Assembly (NCBI GenBank): GCA_913777615.1
Contig: CAJYTK010000006.1
Location: 62,001-126,000, forward strand
Origin: an uncultured Agrobacterium sp.
GTDB taxonomy: Bacteria > Pseudomonadota > Alphaproteobacteria > Rhizobiales > Rhizobiaceae
Length of the DNA stretch: 64,000 nucleotides
Direction of reading: 5' to 3'
The notes under the pieces are model-generated. The model did not search any database. It was not told the DNA's origin and saw only the letters and a list, made by a program, of their open reading frames with translations. The position numbers and the translations under genes are program-made. How positions within the stretch are numbered: position 1 is the first letter of the stretch; every line of letters starts with the position of its first letter. Positions 488 to 23,655 of this stretch are shown here, piece after piece.

Positions 488-682
488 ATGAGGATTTCTT
501 TCCCCTCTCCCGCCCCAACGTTGGGCAACGACATCGAAGAAGCCGTACGCAGCGTCGCCCAAGAACTCGGATGGAGCCGCGAAGAGATGCTGCGGGTTAT
601 TGTCAGAGAATGGTTGGAGCAAAACGCATACCTACCGGTCCTGGATCTAAACGACGAAGGTGAGGCTGGCGGCAATCCCTAG
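488..682 (+). CDS. Small helical protein of unknown function
   Basis: The ATG at 488 lies one base after the stop of the lipoprotein, giving a 64-residue product. Residues 14-45 read as two amphipathic helices (DIEEAVRSVAQELGW, REEMLRVIVREWLEQ), a pattern like ribbon-helix-helix or other small DNA-binding proteins, but the match is weak. The same frame is open upstream to 434 and could start earlier. It is kept because of the spacing and the helical pattern; the function is not known. Confidence 0.4.
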   Translation: MRISFPSPAPTLGNDIEEAVRSVAQELGWSREEMLRVIVREWLEQNAYLPVLDLNDEGEAGGNP

Positions 683-727
683 CGGCTGATGGCAGCCCGA
701 ATGAAGACCGCCATCCACCATCTCGGC

Positions 728-916
728 TCAGTTCACAGGCGTGGCGCCGGCAGTGCCGCATTTGGCGAACTTGCCTTTGGCATCCTTGCACTGGACCTTC
801 TTCTTAGTCGTCTCGCATTTGACGAACTTGCCTTTCGCATCGCGGCACTGCTCGGCGCTTGCCGGCGCAGCGGCGAAAGACGTGAGTGCGGCGACAATCA
901 AAACCGACTTCCACAT
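728..916 (-). CDS. Small secreted protein with CxDAKGKFxKC repeats
   Basis: This is a 62-residue protein with a classical signal peptide (hydrophobic core VLIVAALTSFAAAPA, then ASA before EQC). The mature part has two copies of a CxDAKGKFxKC unit separated by a lysine-rich linker. The four cysteines suggest disulfides in the periplasm. AGGAGG sits eight bases before the ATG, which fixes the start. Similar short cysteine-repeat exported proteins are common in Rhizobiales and generally uncharacterised. Confidence 0.65.
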   Translation of the reverse strand: MWKSVLIVAALTSFAAAPASAEQCRDAKGKFVKCETTKKKVQCKDAKGKFAKCGTAGATPVN

Positions 917-1079
917 TCCCGAATCCTCCTTGGCCGTAATTGGCCGAAGCCATGGTTACAACATGATCAGGAAAGCTCAAGCGGCGAGCGTGGTGCGATC
1001 AAGGATGCCTCTTGTAGACACCACGCCTTTCGGTTGGGGACTTCCAATAGGGATTCTGGACGCCCCCTTTCGCCAGCGC

Positions 1080-1877
1080 CTATTTGAAACGGTCGCGGAG
1101 AAAGATCGCGGCGTCTCGGGCTTCTTCCGAAGAGATCGTGTGACCGACGCCAGGATAGATTTTTGACGTCACGGGAAACCCCGCCGCTTTGAGTTGGTTC
1201 GCCGCAGTCGTCGTCGCAGCGGATGGTATGGTCCTGTCCGCAGAACCATGCATCATAAAGATTTCCGTTTCGACAGAAGACGAAGTCGGCGGCAACGGCA
1301 ACAGTCCGGCGAAGGTGACGAGAGATCCTACCTTCCAACGACCCGAAGCAACCGCATCCAGCGCCATGATGGCGCCTTGCGAGACCCCGACGAAGGGCAC
1401 CCGGTCGAGCGAGTTTTCGAACCCTTCCCGTTTGACGATCTCGGAGACCACGCCGTCGAACGCTCGACGCGCTGCGTCGATCCGCTCGGGACGCATTATC
1501 TGGTCATCGACGGCGAACCACTGACGACCGCCCGACCTATGCGGAAACGGCGCGTCAGGCGCGACGAATGCCGTGTCCGGAAGCGTCGCCTGCCAGGAAT
1601 TTCCCACCGCTTGCATAACGGACCCTCGTCCTCGGATCCCGTGGAACAGGATCACCAGATGATCGGCGCGAACCACTCCTTTTTGAGAGGCGGTTTGTTT
1701 CTGGGTGCGTTCCGCCTGCACAATTTGCAAAGGCTTCCCAGCAGGGTCGACCGCCTTGGACATAAGTCTGATTCCTCTGTCCGCAGCCAATACTCGATCC
1801 GGCTTCGCGACAAGGTAGATCGCGCCGACAAGGATGATGAAAAGAGAGACTAGGGTCGCGAGATGTGACGACGTCAT
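1080..1877 (-). CDS. Alpha/beta hydrolase, carboxylesterase/phospholipase-like
   Basis: This is a 265-residue serine hydrolase with an N-terminal membrane anchor or signal segment (LATLVSLFIILVGAIYLVA). The fold markers are visible: HGIRG (oxyanion-hole region), nucleophile elbow GVSQGA, the acid in HGSADRTIP and the base His in GVGHTIS. This arrangement is typical of the dienelactone hydrolase/carboxylesterase (phospholipase_2) family, which cleaves short esters. I chose the ATG at 1877 because AGGAAAG precedes it; the frame is open to 1910. The substrate is unknown. The anchor suggests it acts at the outside of the inner membrane. Confidence 0.75.
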   Translation of the reverse strand: MTSSHLATLVSLFIILVGAIYLVAKPDRVLAADRGIRLMSKAVDPAGKPLQIVQAERTQKQTASQKGVVRADHLVILFHGIRGRGSVMQAVGNSWQATLPDTAFVAPDAPFPHRSGGRQWFAVDDQIMRPERIDAARRAFDGVVSEIVKREGFENSLDRVPFVGVSQGAIMALDAVASGRWKVGSLVTFAGLLPLPPTSSSVETEIFMMHGSADRTIPSAATTTAANQLKAAGFPVTSKIYPGVGHTISSEEARDAAIFLRDRFK

Positions 1878-2063
1878 GGGGCTTTCCTGTTGCATCCAAT
1901 CAACCTGCATTCCGAATGTTCGTTCCGCTTCGCTGCCAGACCGGCACTGACATTCTCGTTACGGTCACGGTGTCCCTCAAAACGGCCGAGCCCCTGGATC
2001 GGGAACAACCCCGCATATCTCCCGTTCGAGCGGATGCACCACTGCGCACTCAAGGAGATTTCA

Positions 2064-2825
2064 ATGCAGCGATTTGCAGACAAGGTCGTCGTCGTGACTG
2101 GCGCAGGCTCAGGAATAGGTAAGGCGACAGCGGAGCGTTTTCTCGACGAAGGCGCTGTCGTGACACTGGTCGGCCGCACGAGATCGAAGCTCGAAGAGGT
2201 CGCCAAGCCTTTCCGTGATGATCAATTTATGATCGCCGAGGCGGACGTGTCGAATGAGGACGAAGTAAAGGAGCTGATTTCTCGCACCGTCGAGAAGTTC
2301 TGACGCTTGGACGTTCTCGTCAACAATGCGGGCGTCGTCGCCGAAGGCGACGTCGGCACCCTGACCACAGACGATTGGCGTACAGTAATGGCAACGGATG
2401 TCGATGGCGTCTTCTACGCCAGCCGTGCGGCGCTCCCGCATCTGAAGTCATCGCGGGGCTCCATCATCAACGTCAGCTCGGTATCCGGCACCGGTGGCGA
2501 TTGGGGAATGGCAGCCTACAATGCCGCCAAGAGTGCAGTGACCAATCTCACGCGGGCTGTGGCCATGGACCATGGCAAGGACTGCATCGGGGTCAACGCA
2601 GTGTGCCCAAGCCTGACGCGAACAGGCATGACCGAGGATATGATGGACGACGAGAAGCTGATTTCGAAGTTCAACGAACGCTTTGCGCTCAGGGGGCCCG
2701 GCGAGGCTGAAGACGTTGCGGCCGTAATCGCATTTCTTGCAAGCGACGATGCGCGCTTCGTGACCGGGGTCAACCTGCCTGTCGATGGCGGCATATCGGC
2801 GTCCAATGGTCAGCCGCCCCAGTAA
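2064..2825 (+). pseudogene. SDR-family oxidoreductase split by an in-frame TGA
   Basis: The reading frame encodes a classical short-chain dehydrogenase of about 252 residues. It has TGAGSGIG for the cofactor site, NNAG, the catalytic serine in NVSSVSG, YNAAK for Tyr/Lys, and a C-terminal LPVDGG motif. The codon at 2301-2303 is TGA, where the family has glycine (KFGRLDVLVNN). The frame continues without a gap on both sides, so one G-to-T change explains the break. The first part is 79 residues. The second could restart at TTG 2307, but that product would lack the nucleotide-binding motif. It is probably inactive unless the stop is read through. The upstream ATG has an AAGGAG site. Confidence 0.8.
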
Positions 2826-10351: not shown

Positions 10352-13300
10352 TCATCCAGCCGATGCTGAACGCCCGCCCGCTGAGGCCGAGGAATGCACA
10401 GACCACTCCACGCCGTCCTTCCCGAGACCTAGCAGGCTCAGGGTCACAAAGGGTATCCGACGCGATCGAAACTTTCGCTGCAGAAATTCGGCTTGAGCGA
10501 CGTCATGGGTAGATAACAAAACCTGATATCCCTCACCGGCGACGAGATTACCCATCAGATCTGCGAAGGCCGCGGCGTGGATTGAGTCATTGTGCTGCAA
10601 AGGGTCGTCAAGAATAAGTGCCTTCCACCGCGACCAAGGGAAAGTTAGGCTCGCGGCGCATAACATGCTAACCGCTAGAGCCGCCATTTGACCTTCACTA
10701 TGGACGAGCACCGGATCGATCTCTCCGACAGCCTTCGGCACCTCACCGCCCTTTACAGCGCTCTGCTCAATCTTTTTCCTTTTTACGTGCAGATCGATCC
10801 CTACGCGCGGGTCGCAAAGAATTGCTTGATTAATACGTGACATCAGGAAGCCCAAGGGCTTGATGTATTCGGAGTTAAAGTCTTCCAGCTCAGCGCTAAT
10901 ATCGGCGCTCGCGGCCTTGGCAATCTCTTTGACCTCACGAACGGCGTCCGCGCCGGCCTTTTTCTCGGCTTGAAGCGCCGCGGCGCGCGCCAGTACCTCG
11001 TCGCGTGTCGCGTTGGGAGGGCCATCAACCTGCTCTCGAATTTGGTCGAGCACCGCCCTGTGGCTGACCTGTCGTGACCAAGCCAGACGCCCTTCACGCA
11101 GGCGCCCAAGGTTCGCTGCCGCCTCTTTTACGGCAAGTCTCAAAGTGCCGATGGAGCCCTCGACAACTTGAACCGCCGCAAGATCTGGGACCGGGCCAAA
11201 CTGTTTAAGACCAAGCCAATCGTCGCTGACCCTGCGCTGCGCCTCATCAAGGTCGTGCTTACGAGTATCAATCTCGCCCATCCGCGCTCTTAAGCCGGCG
11301 AACTCCCCCTCCAAGGCACCAGCAGCGGTGTCGGCCTCGGTTAGTGCCCTTGATGCAGAAGCGAACGCCTCCTCCCTCCGCAGTTTTTCTGCCTCGGCCT
11401 CCCGAAGCATCCTCGAAAGGTCGTGGGGCTCGATAGCATCCTCCGTCCCCATAGCAGAAGTGGCGCTTCCCTCGTCTACCCTGGCCCGCTCGAGCGAAAC
11501 GGCAAGATCTGCTGCCGCGCGAGTGGCTGCATTGAGTCTCCGTTGGGCTTTATCTCTTTCGCGAACTGCGCGAGAGTAGTCGGCGCTCGATGTCTGAGCG
11601 TCAAGGGCGGGGTGTGTTTGCCAACGCTGCTTTAGCCGGCGCCTCGCACTTACGGTGGCGATCATTTCAACCAAATGCCCCCGGGTCACGGCAAGATCGA
11701 TTGGCGTTTCACTCGGACCGCCATCAAGTCGGGAAATCAGCCTAACTAGCTGCTCTCGCTCGACGTTCAAGTCTGCGCGCGCCGAACGGATTGCCGCGCG
11801 CGCGACACGCAATTGTTGGAGCTCGGAATTGCGAGCCGCTAGAGCGGCGGACAGGCTCTTGAGTGTCTCTTCTTGTGCAAAAAGCGCAGGTGCAAGGCGC
11901 TCCGCAGCAGTCGAAACCCGAGCCTGCAACGCCGCCGCGTCGTCAAAATGAGTTGCGCAAACCGGGCAGTCGCACCCATCAGAGGGCAGATGGCTAGCGA
12001 TTGATGCGATTGCAATCGACATTGTGTCGACTGTCTCCCGAAGACTTTTGACGACAGCATCTTGTGCGTTGACGCTGTCAGTCGCGGCTGCCACCATTTG
12101 TTCGCTACGCGTCAGGGCCGCATCAACGTCCGGATTGCTCGCTTCAAGTTCAGCGAGCGCGGCCGACGTTCCCTCAATATTGTCTTTACAGACAACTGCC
12201 TGCTCGACTGTCGACACCTTGTCACGTAAGCGATCTATCTCTTTATCGAATTGCTCGATCTCACCACTTACCCGTTGCGAGATCTGTCGCCTTCTCTCGG
12301 CAATCGTGACCTCACTCTCCGTTGATCTCTTCGCCTGATCGGCGTCCGCTCTTGCAATCAATGCGTCGCGATACTCACTATCCAGCCGGACAACAAGGGT
12401 TCGCGCGTCATGCAGAGCGCAAAGTCGGGATAAGGCCGTTGATGCGCTGACAACCCGCTGCTGATGGGTCGCAACGTCGTTTCTGCGATCGCTTTGTAGC
12501 TTTCGCGCCTGCGCTAGCTGGTCTCCAAGCGCATCAATTCGTTTCTGCGTCGATGCGCGTGATGCTGCCACTTCGGCAAGGTCCGTCAGAACGCGCTGAA
12601 GCTCACCGTGAAGCCGCCTCGCATCCTCGATCTGGGCCTCTGCCGAAAAACAGTCGCGCTCGATGCGATCGATCGTAGCTTGTAGCCTCTCAATTGTCGG
12701 CACGTCGAGATCAGCAGGCGATGCGTCAACCCCTTGAGCGTCGAATTGGGCCCGCGCGAGCTGCACCGCAATCCGCCGAGCCTCCGCTCGCACAGCGGCA
12801 TCATCCAAAGCGCCTGAAATCCGTGCTTCAAGCCACAGCGCGGACTCCTGCTCCACAAGATCGCCCAAGCTCTTCGCGTCTCGCTCAAACGCTTCTATTT
12901 GCCGAGCGTAGGCGCGAACAACCGATGTATTTCCCTGACCGTGCAGAGCATTGGAAATTGCTTCGATTGCTGTGCTCTGCGCGGCCTCCTTAAGAATATC
13001 GAAGCGTTCGCTCGACTTGCGATAGGTCAACCGCGAAAGTGTCGACTGCCCGAGAAAATGGGTCAGCAAGAGATAGCGCTGCAGCTCCGAGATACGTTGC
13101 TGCCATGCAGGAGCGCGCAGAAAGCCAGTGATATCAGGAACGTTGCCGCCAAGCTGTGAAGCAGTCGATTTAGCGGACAGCAAGCTTCGTTCGATGGTGC
13201 TTTCGTCCGAAAAGACCATCGTCGTACTTGTCGGCCCTGGTTCTCCCTCCCGCCACCGGCACAGGTAAGTGCCTGGCTTGTTCACGCCGGTCGCATCTCG

Positions 13301-13477
13301 GAAATGGTCGATGCGGTCGGAGAGAGCCCATTCGAGCGCATCGAACAGAGAGGATTTGCCTAGGCCGTTACTGCCATGAACGATAAGCACTCCCGGCTCA
13401 GGCGGGAGCTCCACATCGAGCGTGGCGAAACTGCGGAACTGCCGAAGTGAGACTTGCTTCAGATATAGTGGTGTCAT
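10352..13477 (-). CDS. SMC/Rad50-like ABC ATPase (ABC-3C-type candidate)
   Basis: This is a 1041-residue ATPase. The N-terminal head has LRQFRSFATLDVELP and Walker A GSNGLGKSS (residues 35-43). Long coiled coils flank a hook-like CDCPVC motif near residue 500. The C-terminal head has Walker B ALILDDPLQHND and an H-loop STHDVAQAEFL. This is the SbcC/Rad50/SMC layout with a short Zn-hook-like apex. It is the last gene of a three-gene operon with four-base overlaps (ATGA at 13474-13477). Rad50-like ATPases in such operons usually sense or clamp foreign DNA. SbcD nuclease is absent, so it is not ordinary SbcCD. Confidence 0.85.
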   Translation of the reverse strand: MTPLYLKQVSLRQFRSFATLDVELPPEPGVLIVHGSNGLGKSSLFDALEWALSDRIDHFRDATGVNKPGTYLCRWREGEPGPTSTTMVFSDESTIERSLLSAKSTASQLGGNVPDITGFLRAPAWQQRISELQRYLLLTHFLGQSTLSRLTYRKSSERFDILKEAAQSTAIEAISNALHGQGNTSVVRAYARQIEAFERDAKSLGDLVEQESALWLEARISGALDDAAVRAEARRIAVQLARAQFDAQGVDASPADLDVPTIERLQATIDRIERDCFSAEAQIEDARRLHGELQRVLTDLAEVAASRASTQKRIDALGDQLAQARKLQSDRRNDVATHQQRVVSASTALSRLCALHDARTLVVRLDSEYRDALIARADADQAKRSTESEVTIAERRRQISQRVSGEIEQFDKEIDRLRDKVSTVEQAVVCKDNIEGTSAALAELEASNPDVDAALTRSEQMVAAATDSVNAQDAVVKSLRETVDTMSIAIASIASHLPSDGCDCPVCATHFDDAAALQARVSTAAERLAPALFAQEETLKSLSAALAARNSELQQLRVARAAIRSARADLNVEREQLVRLISRLDGGPSETPIDLAVTRGHLVEMIATVSARRRLKQRWQTHPALDAQTSSADYSRAVRERDKAQRRLNAATRAAADLAVSLERARVDEGSATSAMGTEDAIEPHDLSRMLREAEAEKLRREEAFASASRALTEADTAAGALEGEFAGLRARMGEIDTRKHDLDEAQRRVSDDWLGLKQFGPVPDLAAVQVVEGSIGTLRLAVKEAAANLGRLREGRLAWSRQVSHRAVLDQIREQVDGPPNATRDEVLARAAALQAEKKAGADAVREVKEIAKAASADISAELEDFNSEYIKPLGFLMSRINQAILCDPRVGIDLHVKRKKIEQSAVKGGEVPKAVGEIDPVLVHSEGQMAALAVSMLCAASLTFPWSRWKALILDDPLQHNDSIHAAAFADLMGNLVAGEGYQVLLSTHDVAQAEFLQRKFRSRRIPFVTLSLLGLGKDGVEWSVHSSASAGGRSASAG

Positions 13478-14121
13478 TCGGCGTCCCCCCGAGCGGCAAC
13501 CAACTGCGAGATCAGTCCGTCAGGGTCATCCTTGTAGGTATCGGCAAGTTCGACCCATCGTCCGGCCGCTGGCTCGGACAGTCCATGTCTGACGAGGATC
13601 CGCTCAGCCAGCCCTTGGTTATGGTCGAGTGGCGCGTTAAGTACCGCGTCAAGCGAGCGCCAGGGTTGAGCCAGGAATGTTCGTGCGAGGAAATGCTCGT
13701 AGGAAGCATCCAAATCATCGGTGTCTGGCATCCAGATCACTTTCCGACAGACCGTCTCGTCCCTTTCAGCCAGGTCGATGATACCGCGCCAGTCAGCTTG
13801 CGATCCAGTCGTTGTCACGCACAACATGATGTGTGCGTTGATCACCTCCTCAGCGCGCATGTAGGATCGCGCGATCACCATCTGGTTATGCAACGCCTTC
13901 AGCGATATCTGCATTTCCTCGCTGCTTTTAAGCGCAATCGGAGCGACCAACGCCGGGTAGGCGCCAAGCCGCAGCCCGATCGCGTTTTCAGGAAGCGATG
14001 CAGCAGATGCGTCCTGTCGTCCTCTGAATTTGGGCGAAACGAAATCTGTCTCAATCGCTGCAAACCATCCAATTCTTTGGGCTGACGCAATCAGCTTGTC
14101 TCGAAGAATGTCAGGAGTCAT
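13474..14121 (-). CDS. Small middle component of an ABC-3C-like operon
   Basis: This is a 215-residue alpha/beta protein starting at ATG 14121, which overlaps the upstream stop by four bases; it overlaps the ATPase start likewise. It has no catalytic motif I can name. The run IIDLAERDETVCRKVIW looks like the conserved D-x2-VCRK segment of ABC-3C middle component 1 proteins as I remember them; that assignment is tentative. By position and size it would be the adaptor linking the ATPase to the large third component. Confidence 0.6.
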   Translation of the reverse strand: MTPDILRDKLIASAQRIGWFAAIETDFVSPKFRGRQDASAASLPENAIGLRLGAYPALVAPIALKSSEEMQISLKALHNQMVIARSYMRAEEVINAHIMLCVTTTGSQADWRGIIDLAERDETVCRKVIWMPDTDDLDASYEHFLARTFLAQPWRSLDAVLNAPLDHNQGLAERILVRHGLSEPAAGRWVELADTYKDDPDGLISQLVAARGDAE

Positions 14122-16490
14122 TTGGCAAGCTCCTCCAATTCCTTGTCTTGCCTCGCGCGTAGCGCTGCAAATTCGACTTCCACGGCGGCTCTCCAGACCG
14201 TTACATCGTCCGTCAAACGTGCACGCCATTGCTTGTCATTACGAATCACCACGGGGCGTACGCGCCTCGCCGCCGCCATTCCCAACGCGGGCTTGCCACC
14301 ATCGAGAACACGGCCGGGTGGATCCAAAACTTCAACTTCGGCCGAGCCCGACAGTATCAGTGCATCGACATCCCACTGATCGGGCTGGTCCCAAATCGCG
14401 ATAGGCTGCTGCCCAACCATCTGGCAACCCGAGCCCAACGCCACCGCATTGTGGCTGAATTTAAGATTGCCACGATCAACAAGGGCCGGCTTGAGAGGCT
14501 CTCCGTAATGCGTCGCGAGCATCAGCACGAGTGCCGTCGCGAGATACTGAATCGTAGCATGATCGCCGCTCCAAGGCGAACGCTCATCCTGTTCGACATT
14601 CGCGAGCCATCGAAGAAAAGCGGCCAGAAGCGCCTTGTCGGCACGCAAAGAGGCATGCCAAGCTGTCCAAGTCGGTTCGATCGCATCCGCGATCGACGCA
14701 TGAAGCGGACCCAGTGTCTCGCATTGCCGGCTGACTAAGGCCGCTCTGACCCGCTCGTCCAATAAACGAAGTAGGCAGGCGTCGATGGCCTGGTCCAGCC
14801 CCGTAACGTCAAGCGTGATCGCAGGATAGTGTGACACTGCAGACGGCACGGGATCAATCGTTGGAACGAGCTTCTGCCACTCAACCAGCCCATCCGGCCC
14901 GGCCACGAGCATAATGCGGCCACCGCTTGCTCGCGCCAGCCGAACAATGTCAGAAGAGCCCGCGATCTTGTCCGGCGTCACGGCGAGGTGCAGAATGACA
15001 TTACCAGCCAGTCGTTCGCATTGCTCGGCGATTTCCAAAAGACGCCGACTTCCTCGCTCGATCGGAACGTGAGCAGCCGGGTCGCTGCCGATCACTAGCG
15101 TCGCCCGTGCTGCAGCAAGATTGGCTAGCGAGGCCTGCTGCGATGCGTGGTCCTCGAGCTTCGCGATCCGCAGCGCCTCGAAGAAATCGTAGGTTTCGCT
15201 GTCAAGAACCGGGGGCAAATTGAGGTGCGGCTGTGCCGCCAATAGCTCCGTCACATGCGCCTTGTATGCCTGGAAGTGTGCGCCAGCAGCGGCGTAGCGC
15301 ACTGCCCGATTAGGACCGTGACGCAGGATCACATGCTCATGCGTTTCGGTCAGCGGTACTCCACCGACAGTGAGTCCGCTGACCTGAAAACCTTCCGCGC
15401 TCGCAACGACATCTGTGACTTGTCCAGCACTGCGCTGCACTGGACGATCCGCCTGCTTCGCGGCCTCCAGAACCGCAAACACCATCACCTGATTGAGCTG
15501 CGATGCTTTTGTCGCAGCAAACAGCGGACCCGAACTGTTTATGGTCACCCGGCGATCAGATCGCAAGATTTGGCTGAGTCTATCGATTACGCCCCACTCG
15601 TCGAATAGCGGAAGGAGTTGGGCCTTAAACGCTGGCTCTAGGTCAGCTCCAACAGCGGCGCCGGCACATGCCGCTTCTGTCGTGACGCGAAGCGCATCGT
15701 CAGAAAAGTAATTCAAGAACCGTCGCGTAAAGCCGACATGGTCAAAATCCTGAACCAGGAGATTCAATAGGTCAGTAAGCCCTCCATCTCCATTGCCACT
15801 GACGATGTAAGTCGCTGGGCTGTGCGGTTCGGCTGCCGCTGACCCAGTCGAATTCTGTTTCCAATAGTGAACGGGTACAGCCGCCCCGCAAGAGATCTCG
15901 TCGCCGAAACCGATCGCGAGGACGACATGGTCAAATTGGCGATAATTGACGGCGCCGTTGAACGTCAGTCCAAGCCGCCACCGTGCACCTACCTTATCTA
16001 AGGATGTAAGAAGGTGCGCCGACTTGAACTCAAGGTTTTTCAGGCGTGCCACTGCGGCATCAAAATCGGCCTGAAGTCGCGCGCAAACCGCACCGCCATT
16101 GTTCGCCGACCAATCCAAAATCGGTAAACCGGCTCGATCATCCAACGATCCGAGGCCCGGCCACTCATAGATATGGGGATGAAGCAGTCGCGGGGACGCA
16201 CTTTGTAGCTGTAAAATCGACGCCGCCGGGTCGTACAACATCACGTCATTGCCAAGGAGTGCTAAACCAAGCGCTGCAGTCACGCCTGCAGCGCCGGCAC
16301 CAACGACGGCAATGTTGTCGTTGGCCTTCAGGTTGCCTGGACGGCTTAGAGCGTGTGCAAGGCGTAGCGCGCGCACCTGTTGCGAGTAAAATGTGATACG
16401 CCTATCGAATGCTCCAATGAAATGGAGGCCGTTCTCGGCAGGACTCTGTGCAACCTGAAGCCAGTCATCAAACGAGATAGGGACTGTCAT
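14118..16490 (-). CDS. Large FAD/NAD(P)-binding protein, third component
   Basis: This is a 790-residue protein from ATG 16490; the frame is open to 16517. The region around residues 59-85 has a textbook dinucleotide-binding fold, IAVVGAGAAGVTAALGLALLG, followed by an acidic end of strand 2 (LYDPA). VVLAIGFGDE near residue 190 is the second half of an FAD domain, so the first 400 residues look like a flavin-dependent oxidoreductase or an NAD-binding fold derived from one. The remaining 390 residues match no domain I know. First gene of the operon with the middle component and SMC-like ATPase. Whether it oxidises a substrate or cleaves a cofactor cannot be told from sequence. Confidence 0.7.
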   Translation of the reverse strand: MTVPISFDDWLQVAQSPAENGLHFIGAFDRRITFYSQQVRALRLAHALSRPGNLKANDNIAVVGAGAAGVTAALGLALLGNDVMLYDPAASILQLQSASPRLLHPHIYEWPGLGSLDDRAGLPILDWSANNGGAVCARLQADFDAAVARLKNLEFKSAHLLTSLDKVGARWRLGLTFNGAVNYRQFDHVVLAIGFGDEISCGAAVPVHYWKQNSTGSAAAEPHSPATYIVSGNGDGGLTDLLNLLVQDFDHVGFTRRFLNYFSDDALRVTTEAACAGAAVGADLEPAFKAQLLPLFDEWGVIDRLSQILRSDRRVTINSSGPLFAATKASQLNQVMVFAVLEAAKQADRPVQRSAGQVTDVVASAEGFQVSGLTVGGVPLTETHEHVILRHGPNRAVRYAAAGAHFQAYKAHVTELLAAQPHLNLPPVLDSETYDFFEALRIAKLEDHASQQASLANLAAARATLVIGSDPAAHVPIERGSRRLLEIAEQCERLAGNVILHLAVTPDKIAGSSDIVRLARASGGRIMLVAGPDGLVEWQKLVPTIDPVPSAVSHYPAITLDVTGLDQAIDACLLRLLDERVRAALVSRQCETLGPLHASIADAIEPTWTAWHASLRADKALLAAFLRWLANVEQDERSPWSGDHATIQYLATALVLMLATHYGEPLKPALVDRGNLKFSHNAVALGSGCQMVGQQPIAIWDQPDQWDVDALILSGSAEVEVLDPPGRVLDGGKPALGMAAARRVRPVVIRNDKQWRARLTDDVTVWRAAVEVEFAALRARQDKELEELAK

Positions 16491-17195
16491 ACCATACCAA
16501 CAACATGAGGCTTGCACATTAGCAATGTCACCAATTCGAACCTCGATTGCCTCGTATGTCCCGAAATCCCAGTCATCTCCACTCCCTCTCGGTTATGAGC
16601 TTGCGTTATTCCCTCAAATGGCAATGTCCATACAACGCTGCTTGGGAGGTAAATTTATCCAGGCTTCTTCCAAGAGAAACCGTCGATGATTACTTCGCCC
16701 TAGTCTTCCTGCTGTATTGTAGAACCATCTCTGTCGGGCAAACTTTCTCAGATCGAGATTCTTGTAAGGTGACTACAGGTTGTTTTTCAAGGTGGTAAAG
16801 GGCCAAGTTGAACAATTTCTGAGTACTGGAACGGCATTAAGCGCTGGTGGCTTGACAGTGCATCGAATGCTTGTTTTCTTTTAGCATGCTCACTTGCGCT
16901 CCGCGAAACGAGTAGTCGATACGATCCCCGACAACATTGAGCGAGTGAACTTCCGTTTAAGAATCCGGGAATTTCGGCAAAGGCGGGATCCGGAAGGCGC
17001 AAAGAAGCGACCGAGACTAAGGCGCGGTCTTCTGAACTATTGCAACAGGCTAAGCCAATCTGTGGAGCTGCGGGTCGGACACGAACCTTTTGATGTTCAG
17101 GTCCGATTTCGACCGCTAAAGTGGTCAGTCCAGCGGTTGCAATGGCGGCCGGTTTTGGGATGGCTTAGAATGGGCCGTAATGCAAGGAGATCGGT
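16491..17195. other. Intergenic region, about 700 bp
   Basis: It lies between the start of the FAD-protein operon (minus) and acpS (plus), so it must hold divergent promoters. TTGACA at 16852-16857 is a possible -35 box for rightward transcription; the -10 is not clear. Frames of 70-120 codons exist on both strands (for example 16894-17256) but show no family features. The DNA is more AT-rich than its surroundings around 16600-16900. Confidence 0.35.
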
Positions 17196-17570
17196 TTGGC
17201 AGTCATCGGACACGGCGTTGATCTCGTTGACGTTGAGGAGGTCGCGGCACTTCTGAAATTGTCAGGCGATTTTCTTGATCGATGCTTCACGGAGGCCGAA
17301 CGTCGGCGCCTCACCGAGATTGCGGCTTCTCCCGAGCGTATCGCAGCAAGATTTGCAGCGAAAGAGGCAGTCCTAAAATGTCTCGGAAAGGGATTCGGGG
17401 ACGGCATATCCTTTCAAGATGTCGAGGTGTTCACCCATCAATCTGGAGCACCATTTGTGGTCCTCCACGGCAAGGCTCGCGAACTTTCTCAAAGTCTCGG
17501 AGTGGGTACTTGGTTCGTGAGCCTAAGCCACGATGGGGGGAAAGCCATTGCCAGCGTTATTGCCACCTAA
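17196..17570 (+). CDS. acpS: Holo-ACP synthase-like phosphopantetheinyl transferase
   Basis: This is a 124-residue AcpS-type PPTase. The motifs are GHGVDLVDVEEV near the N-terminus (Mg-binding Asp) and FAAKEAVLKCLGKG (Glu/Lys of the active site), with SLSHDGGKAIA at the end. It transfers 4'-phosphopantetheine from CoA to a carrier protein. The start is TTG 17196, preceded by AAGGAG at good spacing. It is an accessory copy; no carrier protein or synthase gene is near. Its last 48 bases overlap the convergent MazG gene. Confidence 0.85.
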   Translation: MAVIGHGVDLVDVEEVAALLKLSGDFLDRCFTEAERRRLTEIAASPERIAARFAAKEAVLKCLGKGFGDGISFQDVEVFTHQSGAPFVVLHGKARELSQSLGVGTWFVSLSHDGGKAIASVIAT

Positions 17571-18485
17571 TTCAGCAAAATTGCCTTCATCGCGGTCGTC
17601 ACCATCAATCGGCGCACTGTAAGCGATGACGCGTGCGTCAAGATCAATATGAACCGAACCGCCTCGGTTCGCGAACATCAGCCTCCAGATTTCAAAACCC
17701 TTGAAGATCGCGGCTTCCCAGTCGGCCAGAGCGCAGTGGCCGACCTCAAGGTGGCCGACCATGCTCTTAATCGTTTTCAGGAGGCCATAGTCGACCTGAT
17801 CAACACCCGCCAAAAAGTTATGGTCGCGTGCGTAGTCGAAAGTCAGCGCGACAACGGCCTCTTCAAGGATGCGTGCACGTCCACCATCTTCCACCTCATC
17901 CAACAGGGGCTGGCTCTTCCGTTTGCGCTTCAGGAAGGCCCTTAAGTTAGGTGACCAGCCAAGAAAGGCTGCATATGCAAGGTGGAACACGTCATGGTAT
18001 CTATATCCGTCAGAGTCATAAGCATTATCGCCTAATGGAGAGCCAATGCGCTCGCCGTTGACTGAAATCTCTACCATCGGACGACCGCCGATGGTTATTT
18101 CTGTAAATTGGACATCCATCTGACGCGGAAGTCGCTCAGTCTCAATGCAAGCCTCATCGAAGCTGGGTTTATGGTTGTTAGCCGCATTCCAACGCTCCCT
18201 AACCTTCACGAGATTAAGCCTTGCGACATCATCGAGGTCGAGATCGAATTTGCTTGCTACGTTAGCGAGATACCACAATAGGTCGCCCAACTCTTCGGAT
18301 ACTCGGTCTTTGAAAAGCCTATGCGCCTCCCCGTCACGCAGGTGCTTCTTATATTCGCTTAGAAGCTGGCCAGCCTCCCCCGCCAGTCCAAGCATCGGTA
18401 TAATCAAGGCATCAGGGCCGAGTTTTCCGGTTGCGGCTGACACGTCGGTACTTAGTGCTTCAACTTGATAGGTTCTGAAGTCCAT
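17523..18485 (-). CDS. MazG-like NTP pyrophosphohydrolase with C-terminal extension
   Basis: This is a 320-residue protein. Residues 30-100 are a MazG-type all-alpha NTP-PPase (GLAGEAGQLLSEYKKHL and SEELGDLLWYLANVA, the EExxD metal site). Residues 115-300 form a second domain with DGYRYHDVFHLAYAAFLGW and LKRKRKSQPLL, which I associate with the MazG_C extension found in phage and bacterial base-modification clusters. It probably hydrolyses a (modified) dNTP to the monophosphate. AGGAG precedes the ATG. It is 66 bp downstream of the HMUDK-like gene in the same direction. Confidence 0.8.
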   Translation of the reverse strand: MDFRTYQVEALSTDVSAATGKLGPDALIIPMLGLAGEAGQLLSEYKKHLRDGEAHRLFKDRVSEELGDLLWYLANVASKFDLDLDDVARLNLVKVRERWNAANNHKPSFDEACIETERLPRQMDVQFTEITIGGRPMVEISVNGERIGSPLGDNAYDSDGYRYHDVFHLAYAAFLGWSPNLRAFLKRKRKSQPLLDEVEDGGRARILEEAVVALTFDYARDHNFLAGVDQVDYGLLKTIKSMVGHLEVGHCALADWEAAIFKGFEIWRLMFANRGGSVHIDLDARVIAYSAPIDGDDRDEGNFAELGGNNAGNGFPPIVA

Positions 18486-18551
18486 TCCTCGCTCCTAACG
18501 AATATTGTTGAACGGAGGCCTCTTTCATCTGTTAATCGAGCGGCTCGCGAT

Positions 18552-19748
18552 TCAGTCGGAAACCTCGTTTGGAAAGGCACCTGCCTGAATCCGCTCGTTT
18601 AGACCCCATTTAGGGGGGTAAAAGAACACTATAGGTTCGACGTTCTTGGAAAATTTTTGCTTTATTCGCATGCGGCCGGTCCTTCCAGGGATGTCCGGAT
18701 GTGCAACACGAGAGAATTTATCAACCTCGCAAAACAGGTTCTGGCAGTCGATAAGCTGCAGCCGCCGCCCCCATAGAGAAGGAAAGTTGATACCAAGGCG
18801 TTCGAACTCTTCTTCCTGCTTATCAGCGACGAACTTAATAAGCTCAGGCTCGCTCAATCCACCAAAGTCGGCGAAGCATTTGCGAAGACCATCCCGGGCG
18901 CCAGGTCCGGGAACAACGAAATCCATTTCTGAGAAGTTTGTGATTGTGCTGTAGTTGATGTCCGTCGCGAACTGGTAGGCAAGGAAATCACCGATCGTCT
19001 GATACCCTCGAAAAAGCTCGAAGGCCGTTTGCATGCAATTTGCGTCCTGGAGCTTGTCCGGGAGGCGGTCCTTCATCATTTCTTCGAGCAGCCGCAAATG
19101 ATTCTGGTGCTTTGCCGGATAACCGAAGGCGGCGCTCCCGGGCGGCATGATGTAGGCGGCAGAATAGATTGTTTCGCCGCGCCGCATGGCACGCCCTAGA
19201 ACATCGCAATATCGTTCGAAATTGTACTCAGAGTAAGCCACAACCCCAAACTCTTTTTCCAGCAACTTCCAGGTTTCAATTTTATTGAATAGCTTGAACA
19301 GGATGATGCGGAAGAACACCTCGCCATTCGAGCTTGGTAGATCCTCGCGGTAGATGACGTTGCGGATCAAATACTGGCTAACCCGGTCCGAAGCGCGATA
19401 TGCATTTGTGAATTTATACGTTGAAAGTACGGAATTCCTTGTCCAAGGCTGAGCTGCTTGTTTCGCACGTTTAAAAAAGATGTGCTGACGCTCGGCGGCA
19501 AACCGCCAATAACTCTCATACGCAGCCGTCACCTTGAGGGGACTAAGGTGCTGCACGATGATGGTCGGTGTGTGTAAGCGTCCCTGCTCACCGACAGCCG
19601 TTTCCCATAGAAGGCTCTTTCCTGCGCCGTCGATGTCCAGTGGGAGCTGCGCTCCCATTTCAACAGACGTGCCACGAGGAAGCGGCGACTTGCGGTTATT
19701 TTGTTTTTTGATGTCACTTTTCACGTCGTCAATTCGCTGTCGCGGCAA
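18552..19748 (-). CDS. HMUDK/aGPT-pyrophosphorylase helical-domain-like protein
   Basis: This is a 398-residue protein starting at TTG 19748 or, with better spacing after the upstream stop, at GTG 19724. The core (about residues 78-290) is largely helical, with YWRFAAERQHIFFKR, PWTRNSVLSTYKFTNAYR, DRVSQYLIRNVIY, and a later FELFRGYQTIGDFLAYQFATD. I associate these signatures with the helical domain shared by 5-hydroxymethyluracil DNA kinases and glutamyl/putrescinyl-thymine pyrophosphorylases of hypermodified-base phages. No P-loop kinase domain is fused here, so it may be the pyrophosphorylase-like type. It follows a thymidylate-synthase-like gene, which supports a pyrimidine-modifying role. 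The assignment is from memory of the motif. Confidence 0.65.
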   Translation of the reverse strand: MPRQRIDDVKSDIKKQNNRKSPLPRGTSVEMGAQLPLDIDGAGKSLLWETAVGEQGRLHTPTIIVQHLSPLKVTAAYESYWRFAAERQHIFFKRAKQAAQPWTRNSVLSTYKFTNAYRASDRVSQYLIRNVIYREDLPSSNGEVFFRIILFKLFNKIETWKLLEKEFGVVAYSEYNFERYCDVLGRAMRRGETIYSAAYIMPPGSAAFGYPAKHQNHLRLLEEMMKDRLPDKLQDANCMQTAFELFRGYQTIGDFLAYQFATDINYSTITNFSEMDFVVPGPGARDGLRKCFADFGGLSEPELIKFVADKQEEEFERLGINFPSLWGRRLQLIDCQNLFCEVDKFSRVAHPDIPGRTGRMRIKQKFSKNVEPIVFFYPPKWGLNERIQAGAFPNEVSD

Positions 19749-20562
19749 AGTGCAGATTTTGCCCCGCAGTGCCCAATTCTTGTGTTTCGCTGATTGCGGC
19801 CTCAGCGGCCGCGATGACGGGTTTCAACCCGGCGTCCGTCTTAGAGATTCGCTCCAGCTTTGCTACCCCGACGGTGACATTGAGGCGGACGAAGGGCATT
19901 TTGAGCTGAAATGCCATGAACTCCCCGAGTTGTTTGAGCCCGAGGTAGTTTCCGTAAGCCTTGTCGAATATCTGCTGAGTTGCATAAAAGGCATTGAGTA
20001 CAAGTCCGCTCTTGGTAGGAACGAACGTGACGTGTTGTAAACAGGGGAAGCCCAGTTGCGCGCTTGGAGTGTGATCGCGTTCCGGGTCGAAGGTAGTAAC
20101 CTGCATCATGGAGTCGCGAACTCCGTCACGCCCATCATACTGCGAAATAACGTACTCAAGCTGGTTGCCATCGCACGGTCCCCGCCCGTACATCATCATC
20201 CGTTCGAAGTACAGTCCTCGACCGTTTGCGGTTCGGTTCATGGCCTGATACGCGGGAAAGGCCATCTTGTAGAAACTGAAAAGCTTGGCCCGATCACCCT
20301 GCGCCATCAGCCAAAGACGTTCAGGGAAGATTGTGTAGGCCACATCTTCAACAACGCATTTGCCCTTGCTCTGCAATAAAATGTCGAGCGCGTCTCGCAG
20401 TCTGTTATCCTCGCTTTCGAACTCTGAGATCGACAAGACCAGAGGACTGACCTCCTTGCCGCTCCCTTGGGTCACGCGAAGCAAGATTTTTGCGTATGCG
20501 CGCGAAACACTCGTTTCGGTGACGATAAATGGCTCCATTGCAATGCTATTTGATTTACTCAT
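19729..20562 (-). CDS. Divergent thymidylate-synthase-like protein
   Basis: This is a 277-residue protein from ATG 20562 (GAGGAAG seven bases upstream; overlaps the peptidase stop by eight bases). The C-terminal half follows the thymidylate synthase fold: a cysteine in FPCLQHVTF takes the place of the nucleophile (PCH in TS), then strand GLVLNAFYATQQIFDKAYGN with an Asn where TS binds dUMP, then helix LGLKQLGEFMAFQL. The phosphate-binding QRSxD motif and the HxY motif of ordinary TS are not conserved. It could methylate or hydroxymethylate an altered pyrimidine or act on a modified base. Its neighbours fit nucleotide modification. Confidence 0.7.
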   Translation of the reverse strand: MSKSNSIAMEPFIVTETSVSRAYAKILLRVTQGSGKEVSPLVLSISEFESEDNRLRDALDILLQSKGKCVVEDVAYTIFPERLWLMAQGDRAKLFSFYKMAFPAYQAMNRTANGRGLYFERMMMYGRGPCDGNQLEYVISQYDGRDGVRDSMMQVTTFDPERDHTPSAQLGFPCLQHVTFVPTKSGLVLNAFYATQQIFDKAYGNYLGLKQLGEFMAFQLKMPFVRLNVTVGVAKLERISKTDAGLKPVIAAAEAAISETQELGTAGQNLHFAATAN

Positions 20563-21421
20563 CGGCGTCTTCCTCAAGGTGACGAAACTCGGCCAGTCCT
20601 ATATATTGCTTTCGGGCAATCCGTACGAAGGCAGCCCAACCGGTATCGGGCTGAATGACCCTGACGATGCCCGGAGTACCTGCTTCGAAAAGGCGACCTG
20701 CAGGCAAATCCTTGACGAAGGTGATTGCTTCACTGTCTGGCTCGGTATCTGAAGGCAGCAGCACACTCATGCCAACTTCCACATCGATGACGGAGGTGCT
20801 CCAGGCATTGTCAACCAACACGAGCGGCTCAGCAGATAAGGATCCAAGAATAGCCGCTCGGATCGCCGCCGGCTTTTGCTTCTTCAACACTGTAGCGCGA
20901 GGGCGGGAGATCATGTTCAAGGACTGGGAAAGATGTGTGATGAGCGTCGTGTATCCAACGCCATATTCACTCGCGATTTGAAAGATCTGCACGGGCGTTG
21001 CCGAGTTCGGCTCCCAGTCTCGCTTTGCAAAGGCCTGCCTCATACCCAAGGTCGGCATCAACACGAAACCAGCAAAGCTGTCCGCCAGAAACTCTTTCGG
21101 ATCTTCCCACGGATTTTCCTTCGCGTCCTCACGCAACTCGTCGATCGACGAGCCATGTCCGAAGACATGGTGGCCCAATTCATGAGCACAATTATAGGCT
21201 CGCCGCGGAAGAGGTCGACGAGCCGACAGATGAATTCGGGAAGGGGTACCGCGCTGGTACATTCCTTCCATGTTTATAGCGTTGAAACGTACCTGAACTT
21301 TATGGGCCTTGCAGAGTGCGTAGATGCAAATCGGATTGATCAGGTCCAGCCCAGCTTTGGTGCGAGCGGCAATTGAAGCCGTCATAGCCCGGTTTGCCAA
21401 AGCATTGCGATCGGGCATCAT
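20555..21421 (-). CDS. ImmA/IrrE-family metallopeptidase
   Basis: This is a 288-residue protein. The zinc-peptidase motif CAHELGHHVFGH and the third ligand region KEFLADSFAGFVLMP are intact. The C-terminal part (about 190-288) is extra and may bind a partner or ligand. Family members cleave XRE-type repressors to derepress mobile or conflict genes; the XRE gene just upstream is the obvious substrate. The start at 21421 is chosen because AGGAG sits seven bases before it; ATG 21442 is the alternative. Confidence 0.85.
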   Translation of the reverse strand: MMPDRNALANRAMTASIAARTKAGLDLINPICIYALCKAHKVQVRFNAINMEGMYQRGTPSRIHLSARRPLPRRAYNCAHELGHHVFGHGSSIDELREDAKENPWEDPKEFLADSFAGFVLMPTLGMRQAFAKRDWEPNSATPVQIFQIASEYGVGYTTLITHLSQSLNMISRPRATVLKKQKPAAIRAAILGSLSAEPLVLVDNAWSTSVIDVEVGMSVLLPSDTEPDSEAITFVKDLPAGRLFEAGTPGIVRVIQPDTGWAAFVRIARKQYIGLAEFRHLEEDADE

Positions 21422-21446
21422 ATTTTCGCTCCTGAGCTTCATAGAG

Positions 21447-21809
21447 TTACTGTTCCTTCGGGTCAGACGTTTCGTCACGCATCGCCGCAAGCAGCTTCAG
21501 CAGACGCTCTAGATCATCAGGTTTCAATTTGGTCAGTTCGCGTGCCGCGAGCTGCAATCGTGGATCCGCCGCATCCACCGTGTCGGGGACATCCCCCATC
21601 AGCCAAGCGACACTCACGTCATACAGTTCCGCCAATTGCGAAAGCTCCTCGGCCGATACGCGCCGATTGCCCGCTTCGATTTCCGTTACCGAAGGGCGAT
21701 GGAGGCCCAAGAGTTTCGCTACCTGGCCCTGCGAGAGACCCGCGAGCTTGCGCGCCTCCTTCAAGCGTTCGGCCAGATACGTACGCCGGTCGGTCGGGTT
21801 GTCCGTCAT
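21447..21809 (-). CDS. XRE-family repressor
   Basis: This is a 120-residue protein with an N-terminal Cro/C1 helix-turn-helix (AGLSQGQVAKLLGLHRPSVTEIEAGNRRVS) and an acidic helical C-terminus. ATG 21809 overlaps the stop of the preceding gene by four bases. It pairs with the ImmA/IrrE peptidase downstream, a common repressor/anti-repressor arrangement. The three CTTAC-type half-sites upstream of the operon (22132-22156) are the likely operator. Confidence 0.85.
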   Translation of the reverse strand: MTDNPTDRRTYLAERLKEARKLAGLSQGQVAKLLGLHRPSVTEIEAGNRRVSAEELSQLAELYDVSVAWLMGDVPDTVDAADPRLQLAARELTKLKPDDLERLLKLLAAMRDETSDPKEQ

Positions 21810-22117
21810 GCTGCTGCCACCACCGCCGCCTGTGCGTCGAGTTCCTTGATCAAAGTGCAAACCAACGCGACGGTTTGCGCGATTGTCAGCGCTTGCTTCG
21901 TGGCATCGTCGACGAAAAGATTGAGCTCTGGCGGGATGTCCTTGCCGAGTGCGGCGCCAAGCATACCGGCCGCAACCGGCCAGACCTTGCTATTGAACTT
22001 CGGCAATTCCTCTGCAGGTCGAGCCGTCGGATCGAGCACTGGGCAGGCTTCCTTGCTGATCGTCTGAATCGTCGTCAGAACGTCCATCAAATGCTTTTGA
22101 ACATCGGTCGGATCCAT
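21806..22117 (-). CDS. Hypothetical first gene of the XRE/peptidase operon
   Basis: This is a 103-residue helical protein rich in alanine (ITKQ-like helices and a C-terminal ALVCTLIKELDAQAAVVAAA). No family is recognised. GGAGGAAG precedes ATG 22117, and the stop overlaps the XRE start. As first gene under the putative operator it may be a small partner of the repressor. Confidence 0.6.
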   Translation of the reverse strand: MDPTDVQKHLMDVLTTIQTISKEACPVLDPTARPAEELPKFNSKVWPVAAGMLGAALGKDIPPELNLFVDDATKQALTIAQTVALVCTLIKELDAQAAVVAAA

Positions 22118-22131
22118 AACTTCCTCCGTTT

Positions 22132-22171
22132 CTTACATGCAGTAAGATAATCTTACACAACGTAGAGTCAA
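22132..22171 (-). promoter_or_regulatory. Promoter overlapped by a three-half-site operator
   Basis: CTTAC (22132-22136), GTAAG (22142-22146) and CTTAC (22152-22156) are spaced exactly five bases apart, alternating in orientation. On the minus strand a promoter TTGACT (22166-22171), 16-base spacer, TATCTT (22144-22149) overlaps them. A repressor bound here would block the promoter of the XRE operon. The first start codon is 15 bases away. Confidence 0.6.
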
Positions 22172-22397: not shown

Positions 22398-22901
22398 ATG
22401 AGCCAGCAATACGATTTTTTGGCGATGCAAAAGGCGCAGTTCCGTCACGATCAGGGCAACCATTCGGACATCATATGCCTTCCAAAATCAGACCGGCTGA
22501 AGCACTACGGCCTCCATTTTGCGAAGTATGTTGGTCGGTTTGCGCGAGGTGGTACCGAGACAAAATCTGCCGATCGAACTTTGGTTGACATGGCTTTGGT
22601 ATGCCTAAGCGCGGCAAACGCTTTGCATCAAAGCATCCAGGAGGATATGGTGAATTTCCCGCAGAACCCATTTGATCAGCTGGATCCGCTTCGCTCCCTT
22701 GCGGACGCGGCTGGCCGGTTCGCCGATGCCTGTGAAAAGATCGACCACCTGGAAGACTTTCTATCGATCGCTCGGCCCGCCAACCTCGACGTATTAAACT
22801 GGACGCTGCGCACTGCGACCGAACGCGGGCTTGATCTGAACGTTGCAATTGCTGAGCGGCGTAGAGAGCTGGTAGCGCGACAATTTTACGTCGAGGGTTG
22901 A
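22398..22901 (+). CDS. Possible MazG-like helical protein
   Basis: This is a 167-residue, mostly helical protein. AAGGA precedes the ATG. The stretch LKHYGLHFAKYVGRFARGG followed by DRTLVDMALVCLSAANALHQSI looks like the first helices of MazG-like NTP pyrophosphatase relatives, but the acidic metal site is not clear, so this is tentative. It is followed after four bases by the dCTP-deaminase-like gene, with which it probably forms an operon transcribed away from the XRE operon. Confidence 0.5.
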   Translation: MSQQYDFLAMQKAQFRHDQGNHSDIICLPKSDRLKHYGLHFAKYVGRFARGGTETKSADRTLVDMALVCLSAANALHQSIQEDMVNFPQNPFDQLDPLRSLADAAGRFADACEKIDHLEDFLSIARPANLDVLNWTLRTATERGLDLNVAIAERRRELVARQFYVEG

Positions 22902-22905
22902 TGTT

Positions 22906-23655
22906 ATGGCATTTTGGAGCAGTCAGACCCTTGAAAATCGGCTTGGTGCGTTGATTGCGGGTGCAGGAGCACCCAAAGTTGACTGCAATGCTATCGAGTT
23001 GACGATCGGGCGCGAGGTCTACGTCACGCCAAATCTCACCGATATCTACACCACTACGAAGCAACAGTTGCAGCTAGAAGAGGCTTTTCAGATTCCTCCC
23101 GGTCAATTTGCTTTCCTTTTGACTGAGGAGATTGTGAAGGTGCCAAAGGCCGCCATGGCCTTCATTTCCATGAAGGCGACATTTAAAATGAAGGGCCTGA
23201 TCAATGTTTCCGGCTTCCACGTCGATCCGGGTTGGGAAGGACCACTTGTTTTCGCCGTGTTCAATGCTGGTCCTGCACCTGTACACCTTCAGCGCGGGCT
23301 TCCACTTTTTTTGATTTGGTATGCTGATCTCGATCAACCATCTGAGAAGCATAAATCTACGCCCGGCGCAGCCACCATACCACCGACATTGATTAGTAGC
23401 CTTACCGGAGGAAACGACACGCTCTTTGCACTGGACCAGCGGCTAAAGGACGGGATTAAAAGGCTGGATGAGGAAGACCGAAAGCTAGATAGTCGAATTC
23501 ACGAATTGCGGAACGCTCAAACGCGAAACACCGTAATGATCTCGGTAATCGCTCCGATCTTGCTGGGATTGGTAGCGCTTGCCTTCAAGGATTCGATCGT
23601 GTCGCTGCTGCCGACGCGATCGACTAGCATTTCACAGCCGCATACCGGCCCATGA
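22906..23655 (+). CDS. dCTP deaminase/dUTPase-fold protein with C-terminal membrane anchor
   Basis: This is a 249-residue protein. Residues 25-150 follow the dCTP deaminase/dUTPase trimeric fold: NAIELTIGREVYV, a FAFLLTEEIVKVP strand, GFHVDPGWEGPLVFAVFNAGP, then the HLQRGLPLFLIW strand. The usual SSxxR motif is replaced by MKATFKMKG and the catalytic Glu before Asn is an alanine/valine position (VFAVFN). Deaminase activity is therefore doubtful. Residues 165-205 are a charged coiled coil and 207-230 a membrane helix (VMISVIAPILLGLVALAF). It could be a nucleotide sensor at the membrane. Confidence 0.7.
   Translation: MAFWSSQTLENRLGALIAGAGAPKVDCNAIELTIGREVYVTPNLTDIYTTTKQQLQLEEAFQIPPGQFAFLLTEEIVKVPKAAMAFISMKATFKMKGLINVSGFHVDPGWEGPLVFAVFNAGPAPVHLQRGLPLFLIWYADLDQPSEKHKSTPGAATIPPTLISSLTGGNDTLFALDQRLKDGIKRLDEEDRKLDSRIHELRNAQTRNTVMISVIAPILLGLVALAFKDSIVSLLPTRSTSISQPHTGP

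Follow-up and report, generated by a model that had tools for sequence, protein, structure and literature searches.

Several described systems each resemble part of the locus reported here. An XRE-family repressor, CapH, and an M78-family protease, CapP, are encoded upstream of operons of the cyclic oligonucleotide-based anti-phage signalling system (CBASS) and of other immune operons, and the available portions of two reports state that single-stranded DNA activates CapP and PprI, which then cut their repressors (PMC13373217, PMC10904395). Excerpts of the DefensePredictor study describe Escherichia coli defence units with a thymidylate synthase (TS) domain and with a 5-hydroxymethyldeoxyuridine (5hmdU)-kinase domain as validated, and MazG, MazG_C and aGPT-Pplase defence systems as predicted without tests (PMC13092281). 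Brig1 and Brig3, members of the uracil-DNA glycosylase (UDG) superfamily, excise modified cytosines from phage DNA according to excerpts of the corresponding papers (PMC11078745, PMC13160076). Here we describe a cassette whose six core genes lie at 17523–22117 on the minus strand of the window, by which we mean the whole 64,000-nucleotide stretch analysed (positions 62,001 to 126,000 of contig CAJYTK010000006.1, assembly GCA_913777615.1, from an uncultured Agrobacterium sp.). The sequence itself shows its parts with their order and conservation, as well as the operator, the patterns of residues and the setting in a defence island, and with confidence that stands about midway we propose an inducible anti-phage function directed at 5-modified pyrimidines.

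The cassette shares features with these systems and also differs from them. Like CapH and CapP, it has an XRE repressor and an M78 protease with an HExxH motif encoded ahead of the operon, but in 26 of 29 loci the pair follows a gene for an acyl carrier protein (ACP), and the operon behind it is not CBASS. Phage 5hmdU hypermodification (5-HMUDK) also involves the HMUDK_hel family together with TS-superfamily and MazG proteins, whereas the cassette showed no kinase domain at E≤1, adds an ACP and a holo-ACP synthase (AcpS), and is bacterial and repressor-controlled. With Brig1 and Brig3 the parallel is one of annotation: the UDG superfamily serves in defence, and a sister type of the cassette has a UDG-annotated gene in the HMUDK_hel position, but the window cassette itself has no UDG. 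The DefensePredictor units share overlapping domains, and one of the predicted systems may be the present cassette, although the main text of that paper, as far as available, names no ACP, phosphopantetheine or ImmA (PMC13092281). Among the open-licence PMC matches listed for TS, HMUDK, MazG_C, aGPT and ACP, no comparable cassette appeared besides the DefensePredictor and Brig papers. Likewise, none of the matches listed was a paper on a carrier protein (ACP, AcpS or phosphopantetheine) in phage defence. We know of no defence system that uses one.

The initial annotation had placed six minus-strand genes, overlapping or a few bases apart, in this interval, and the open reading frame (ORF) list of the window agrees: six densely packed ORFs occupy it. 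With start codons picked by homologue comparison, the junctions from the ACP-like gene to the MazG gene measure −4, +4, −8, +4 and +66 bp, and because they are so tight the six genes are likely to be carried on a single transcript. The predicted products, all on the minus strand, are an ACP-like protein of 103 aa (22117–21806), a CapH-like XRE repressor of 120 aa (21809–21447), a CapP-like ImmA/IrrE metallopeptidase of 295 aa (21442–20555), a TS-fold protein of 277 aa (20562–19729), an HMUDK_hel protein of 390 aa, or 398 aa if an upstream TTG start is used (19724–18552), and a MazG protein of 320 aa with a MazG_C domain (18485–17523). The last five had been recognised before in these broad classes. 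The first had been described only as a small helical protein; the gene is there, but its identity as an ACP was missed. Also absent from the earlier gene list were the AcpS gene (17196–17570, plus strand), which is convergent with the MazG gene and overlaps its end, and two genes at 22398–23655 on the plus strand encoding the helical protein orf167 and a dCTP deaminase (DCD)-like protein. Of everything added here, the ACP, AcpS and DCD-like proteins together with the operator described below alter the picture most.

The gene set recurs well beyond the window. All nine genes are present on a Mesorhizobium contig at 79–93% protein identity and the same nine on a Sinorhizobium fredii plasmid, and large parts of the set were found in Shinella, Tardiphaga, a Rhodospirillaceae metagenome-assembled genome, Rhizobium rosettiformans, Nostoc, Allocoleopsis and Streptomyces. 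For counting, 29 non-redundant loci with a TS-like match at E<1e-40 were assembled, reached via similarity to the TS-like, HMUDK_hel, MazG_C or ImmA protein and not via the ACP. Excluded were repeat copies (L001, L002, L008–L011, L024, L035–L038, L056, L057, L062, L074, L099–L101, L103 and L181), the shorter or divergent L003/L028 (TS-like E 7e-33; no ACP, XRE or ImmA match), and L021 and L076, in which the TS-like match is partial; these last two both have AcpS, XRE, ImmA and HMUDK_hel, with an ACP in L021 only. Within 9 kb, XRE and ImmA were found at all 29 loci, upstream of the TS-like gene on the same strand and within 2.5 kb, the ACP at 26, a MazG profile match at 25 and HMUDK_hel at 17. 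Among the 13 loci outside the training set of the ACP profile, ten have the ACP; the other three, in which it was not found, are L080, where the contig ends in the XRE gene, and L098 and L102, where a 97-aa ORF with an ACP-like motif lies just ahead of the XRE gene below threshold (PP-binding 0.046 in L098, none in L102). With the same profiles, no ACP or TS-like match occurred at any of 20 other ImmA loci or 75 other MazG loci (viral contigs), many of the ImmA controls having only the protease region in common and some control contigs being short. On these comparisons, ACP-XRE-ImmA-TS is a conserved module. Of 18 gene comparisons with Mesorhizobium and S. fredii, 17 gave a ratio of nonsynonymous to synonymous substitution rates of 0.03–0.09 and one was saturated. 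Since the same genes in the same order turn up in distant genomes and these ratios are low, the cassette is more than a chance assembly; the expectation in the initial annotation that the set would prove conserved was thus borne out.

Its spread is patchy. Of 398 genomes, 16 gave a match to the TS profile, counting the own one; besides the own genome only G296, G736 and G532 have full-length matches, and the other 12 are weak partial matches that were excluded. Three such weak partial loci (L081–L083) gave no XRE or ImmA match. Within the order, 4 of 397 genomes have HMUDK_hel at E≤1e-20, and 3 of 101 relatives have a TS-like match, the own genome included in both counts.

The carrier protein was identified through its family. 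Across 17 aligned ACP-like proteins only Met1 and Ser43 (window numbering) are invariant, and Ser43 falls in a DSL-like motif, FNSK in the window, at the place of the phosphopantetheine serine. Solved ACPs are matched by the family profile from E 1.3e-6, and RefSeq annotates the equivalent gene as acyl carrier protein in Allocoleopsis and Streptomyces. Individual members are divergent: Pfam PP-binding matched 4 of 17 at E≤0.1, of three members re-scanned L019 scored above the Pfam cut-off and L016 and L030 below it, and the 103-aa window protein searched alone against Pfam gave no match. Taken as a family, the first cassette gene is an ACP that retains its phosphopantetheine serine. A helical protein of no recognised kind was considered for the 103-aa product and rejected on Ser43 and the family profile. 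The AcpS matches PF01648 at 1.5e-19, its family profile finds solved AcpS at 1.1e-35, and D9 and E57 are invariant in 8 sequences; these we take to be the functionally important Asp and Glu of holo-ACP synthases. Two further PF01648 matches and a ThyA lie elsewhere in the host genome, and therefore the cassette AcpS and TS-like protein are extra copies. As a separate observation on the host ThyA, C4:29146–30868 holds two adjacent PF00303 matches, one full and one spanning model positions 1–178, and C16:17107–17385 a C-terminal PF00303 piece; together these may reflect a thyA duplication or a broken copy.

Control of the operon by a repressor and its protease, as the initial annotation had proposed, was supported from several directions. 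The XRE protein matches HTH_3 at 1.4e-15 and the ImmA protein Peptidase_M78 at 4.1e-14, and their best names in PADLOC are capH (8e-18) and capP (1.1e-12). HELGH is invariant in the ImmA alignment (16 sequences), and among PDB entries the ImmA family profile matches solved CapP best (E 3e-8). Upstream of the ACP gene lies the palindrome GTAAGATTATCTTAC (minus-strand reading, 22142–22156), of the form GTAAGA-N3-TCTTAC. Both half-sites are invariant in 11 of 11 aligned upstream regions, cyanobacteria included, in which mean column identity is 47%. A third half-site follows the palindrome at 22130–22136 and TTGACT precedes it at 22166–22171, and the operator is predicted to overlap the promoter. 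The palindrome stands ahead of the ACP gene in 12 of the 29 loci, the remaining 17 being without GTAAGA-N3-TCTTAC, and all 16 of its matches in 211 sequences (2.39 Mb) fall at cassette loci, 12 distinct and 4 repeat copies of DNA already counted. The host assembly (4.55 Mb, 91.85% complete) contains the palindrome a single time, at the cassette. Protease-type loci, described below, have other palindrome-like sequences upstream, few of which beat shuffles. Scanning single upstream regions for palindromes was rejected as a criterion, as in most of them more than 5% of shuffles reached the top score (all 200 in L029), and the operator is called because it is conserved and unique. Together these results support an XRE-ImmA repressor-protease switch with a dedicated predicted operator.

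The surroundings are those of a defence island, in line with the anti-phage device that the initial annotation had suggested. A Lamassu-type set adjoins the cassette at 10352–16517 on the minus strand (LmuB 1e-258, LmuC 3.4e-66, LmuA 1.5e-219), its LmuA having an FAD-binding-like N-terminus and a CTD2. Gabija (GajA 1.2e-236, GajB 6.9e-242) and an IetAS pair (IetA 4.4e-71; IetS 1.2e-28, partial) together span 52416–59657 (minus strand). Beside relatives of the cassette, PADLOC found Lamassu (L012), Kiwa (L004), Shedu (L029) and AbiE (L006). Among 10 neighbour proteins searched, L013:9525–11243 and L033:4167–6089 had no PADLOC match at E≤1e-10.

The HMUDK_hel protein matches PF18723 at 7.3e-110 (367 bits against a cut-off of 25, positions 2–279 of 281) and phrog_2396 at 2.3e-53. 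Of the HMUDK or aGPT identity first suggested for the 398-residue protein, the HMUDK half therefore stands; the aGPT-Pplase half was rejected, there being no such Pfam match at E≤1. HMUDK_hel is the sole Pfam match at that threshold; no kinase domain was found at E≤1, and the protein does not qualify as a 5hmdU DNA kinase. Kinship of HMUDK_hel with MazG_C was rejected on a negative profile comparison, and a search for solved relatives of HMUDK_hel yielded a single chance-level match (E 0.12). The family also occurs in other settings: in L018 and L020, on Erythrobacter and Sphingosinicella plasmids, HMUDK_hel adjoins an exonuclease gene and DnaE with a SAM (S-adenosylmethionine) methyltransferase near, a different use of the family, and in L014:114–3225, on a Gloeothece plasmid, a patatin gene annotated as a CBASS phospholipase lies directly 5' of HMUDK_hel and MazG_C with TIR genes near, in a stretch with no ACP, XRE, ImmA or TS-like match. 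HMUDK_hel relatives also occur in 474 phage records, of 22 plasmid records in which HMUDK_hel was matched, 7 are predicted to be conjugative, relaxase-like and TraG-like ORFs lie beside L004 (by eye), and HMUDK_hel adjoins polymerase genes on sphingomonad plasmids. These facts would suit a different role, in which a plasmid or conjugative element would evade restriction as phages do, by producing 5-modified thymine in its own DNA and decorating it, the process being switched on during transfer or damage. We consider such self-modification unlikely, given that no kinase domain accompanies HMUDK_hel at E≤1, that no amino-acid transferase was recognised in the cassette, and that the operon sits in a defence island under a dedicated repressor-protease switch.

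The TS-like protein proved, in a structural model, to have the fold its first description implied. It has no Pfam match at E≤1, PF00303 included, and matches TIGR03283 weakly (2.9e-8, 33.5 bits against a cut-off of 174.55), but an AlphaFold2 model (10 sequences; mean pLDDT 80.4, pTM 0.82) has the TS fold. Foldseek ranks 1–7 for the model are the CMP hydroxymethylase MilA (best E 1.8e-9, TM about 0.5), followed by a phage dCMP-modifying enzyme and then thymidylate synthases. Positions were assigned by what, in part, we take to be the residue roles of E. coli TS. The nucleophile Cys and the base-reading Asn are retained in all 29 proteins, which with the fold places the family in the TS superfamily. 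The phosphate-Arg position is Arg in 14 and Ala or Pro in 15, Ala in the window, and the ribose-His position is Val in the window clade, so that the window protein is not a canonical ThyA. The MilA paper, in the part available, pairs Asn with uracil substrates and Asp with cytosine (PMC5175136), and the base pocket is accordingly predicted to be of the uracil type. MilA shares the nucleophile Cys but has Asp where the window protein has Asn, and its Arg, Ser and His contacts are lost in the window clade. The base chemistry thus looks kept and the grip on a free 5'-monophosphate looks lost, a combination that suggests an unusual substrate, for example DNA, a nucleoside or a carried group. Two other TS-like arrangements were seen. 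At L028:7302–8880, from the genus of the window's host, the TS-like protein is short (210 aa), its neighbour has membrane stretches as judged by eye, and the ACP switch is missing. In L005, a metallophosphoesterase (502–2817, minus strand) has a TS-like domain at residues 464–589 (E 9e-4, below the Pfam cut-off), near which are a TS-like ORF and a dTMP-kinase-like ORF (by eye).

The top rank of MilA, an enzyme of mildiomycin biosynthesis, raises the prospect of a pathway like those for nucleoside antibiotics, in which the TS-fold enzyme would work with ACP and AcpS to assemble a nucleoside-type compound that serves as chain terminator or messenger. The ACP-AcpS pair and the nucleotide-binding MazG and DCD folds would fit, but no adenylation, ketosynthase or transporter gene was recognised beside the cassette and the base-reading residue is the uracil-type Asn and not the Asp of MilA, and we judge a small-molecule or signal system to be distinctly unlikely.

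The sister type offers a further comparison. Six plasmids, two of them from Bradyrhizobium and one each from Sulfitobacter, Burkholderia glumae, Rhizobium leguminosarum and Sinorhizobium fredii, share the order ACP-XRE-ImmA-papain-like protease-TS-like; opposite lies a gene annotated as uracil-DNA glycosylase, in the place of HMUDK_hel, accompanied mostly by MazG_C and sometimes by DCD and AcpS. The ImmA protein of this type can bear a C-terminal chagasin-type I42 inhibitor domain (L029–L034, L183; Pfam 4.5e-6 in L183, family profile against solved amoebiasin 9e-5). Because this domain sits on ImmA next to a C1 papain-like protease, cleavage of the repressor and restraint of the protease may be combined in one protein. 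HMUDK_hel itself occurs with the protease type in L183, so that HMUDK_hel and UDG look exchangeable, and this exchange suggests that HMUDK_hel also acts on a modified pyrimidine in DNA. On the other hand, a protease next to an inhibitor-bearing ImmA, XRE-ImmA pairs in general and carriage on plasmids are also what a toxin-antitoxin or addiction module would have, its toxin being one of the enzymes or the papain-like protease. The window type has no protease gene, however, and ACP, TS-like, HMUDK_hel and MazG_C proteins together exceed the needs of a toxin pair, and we regard this explanation as quite improbable.

The remaining proteins have folds associated with nucleotide pools. The MazG protein matches PF18722 (MazG_C) at 3.1e-75 and PF03819 (MazG) at 3.1e-5, as its first description as a MazG protein with a C-terminal domain foretold; solved MazG-fold proteins match the N-terminal part of the family profile from E 5.1e-5, and E37, E64, E65 and D68 are invariant in 15 sequences, which we presume to be the catalytic acidic residues of MazG pyrophosphohydrolases. 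The DCD-like protein (22906–23655, plus strand; PF22769 1.6e-13) has a C-terminal membrane helix (by eye). At the position of the Glu in solved Dcd 4xjc (TLELFN), which we take to be the general base, eight DCD-like proteins have Ala (six, the window included) or Ser (two), and an active dCTP deaminase was rejected for this reason. The name alone is not decisive, since Met stands at this position in two solved entries called dCTP deaminase. The neighbouring orf167 (22398–22901, plus strand) has homologues by tblastn in L004 (80% identity), L002 (53%) and L025 (57%) and is hypothetical in the L012 annotation. Nucleotide-pool housekeeping under stress with no phage link, for which MazG and DCD as pool-cleaning folds might argue, is highly improbable in view of the patchy spread, the defence-island setting and the missing solved-Dcd Glu.

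For the proposed anti-phage cassette we infer the signal, the cleavage, the role of the ACP, the substrate and the protection as follows. At rest, XRE would be bound to GTAAGA-N3-TCTTAC at the promoter and keep the operon, its own gene included, low. On infection, ImmA would be activated by a signal that is most likely single-stranded DNA, as with CapP and PprI, and would then cut XRE and release the operon. The TS-fold enzyme would make or capture a 5-substituted pyrimidine, with holo-ACP, charged by the cassette AcpS, as partner in this step. HMUDK_hel would act on the 5-modified pyrimidine in DNA, a place that the UDG-annotated protein would fill in the sister type, and MazG_C and the DCD-like protein would trim or read the dNTP pool. 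Phage DNA would be damaged or blocked as a result. A bolder version, which we think unlikely, has the pyrimidine loaded on the carrier: the phosphopantetheine thiol of the ACP would join the TS-fold reaction and add to the exocyclic methylene of the uracil ring, and the charged ACP could then supply HMUDK_hel (or UDG) for its reaction on phage DNA, or signal to ImmA so that the repressor is released.

Several points weigh against this anti-phage proposal. The cassette has no known protective effect, enzyme activity or cleavage reaction, and the roles given to ACP and MazG_C are guesses. The defence neighbours are hand-picked examples counted without a background rate, and the ACP, TS-like, HMUDK_hel, MazG_C and DCD proteins have no match at E≤1 in PADLOC-DB 2.0.0. 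Within 9 kb, AcpS was seen in 11 of the 29 loci and DCD in 9. UDG in the sister type is weakly supported, with Pfam above cut-off in L029 (3.4e-8), just below in L033 and no match in L031. In an unselected sample of 14 MazG_C places, XRE-ImmA was found at only 5 of the 13 outside the own genome (L070, L071, L074, L076 and L077) and not at L066, L067, L068, L069, L072, L073, L075 and L078, of which L068, L069, L072 and L073 are stretches of less than 10 kb on short contigs or contig ends. The interpretation first placed on the locus is partly supported: its gene assignments, apart from aGPT, and the conservation and the switch hold, and the sensing or alteration of modified pyrimidines and an anti-phage effect are proposals.

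If the proposal is correct, regulated multi-enzyme pyrimidine chemistry with a phosphopantetheine carrier would serve bacterial immunity, and phage-type thymine chemistry would have been put to host use. HMUDK_hel and MazG_C, Pfam names from phage base modification, would become testable parts of an immune pathway. The single ACP serine and the single TS-like cysteine would be clean test points, and the sister type, with its TS-like protein, UDG, papain-like protease and I42 inhibitor, eases comparison. Inducible nucleotide-directed defence and the use of TS and 5hmdU-kinase domains are already known; the carrier-protein component, on which no report appeared among the matches listed, may make the cassette more than a variant.

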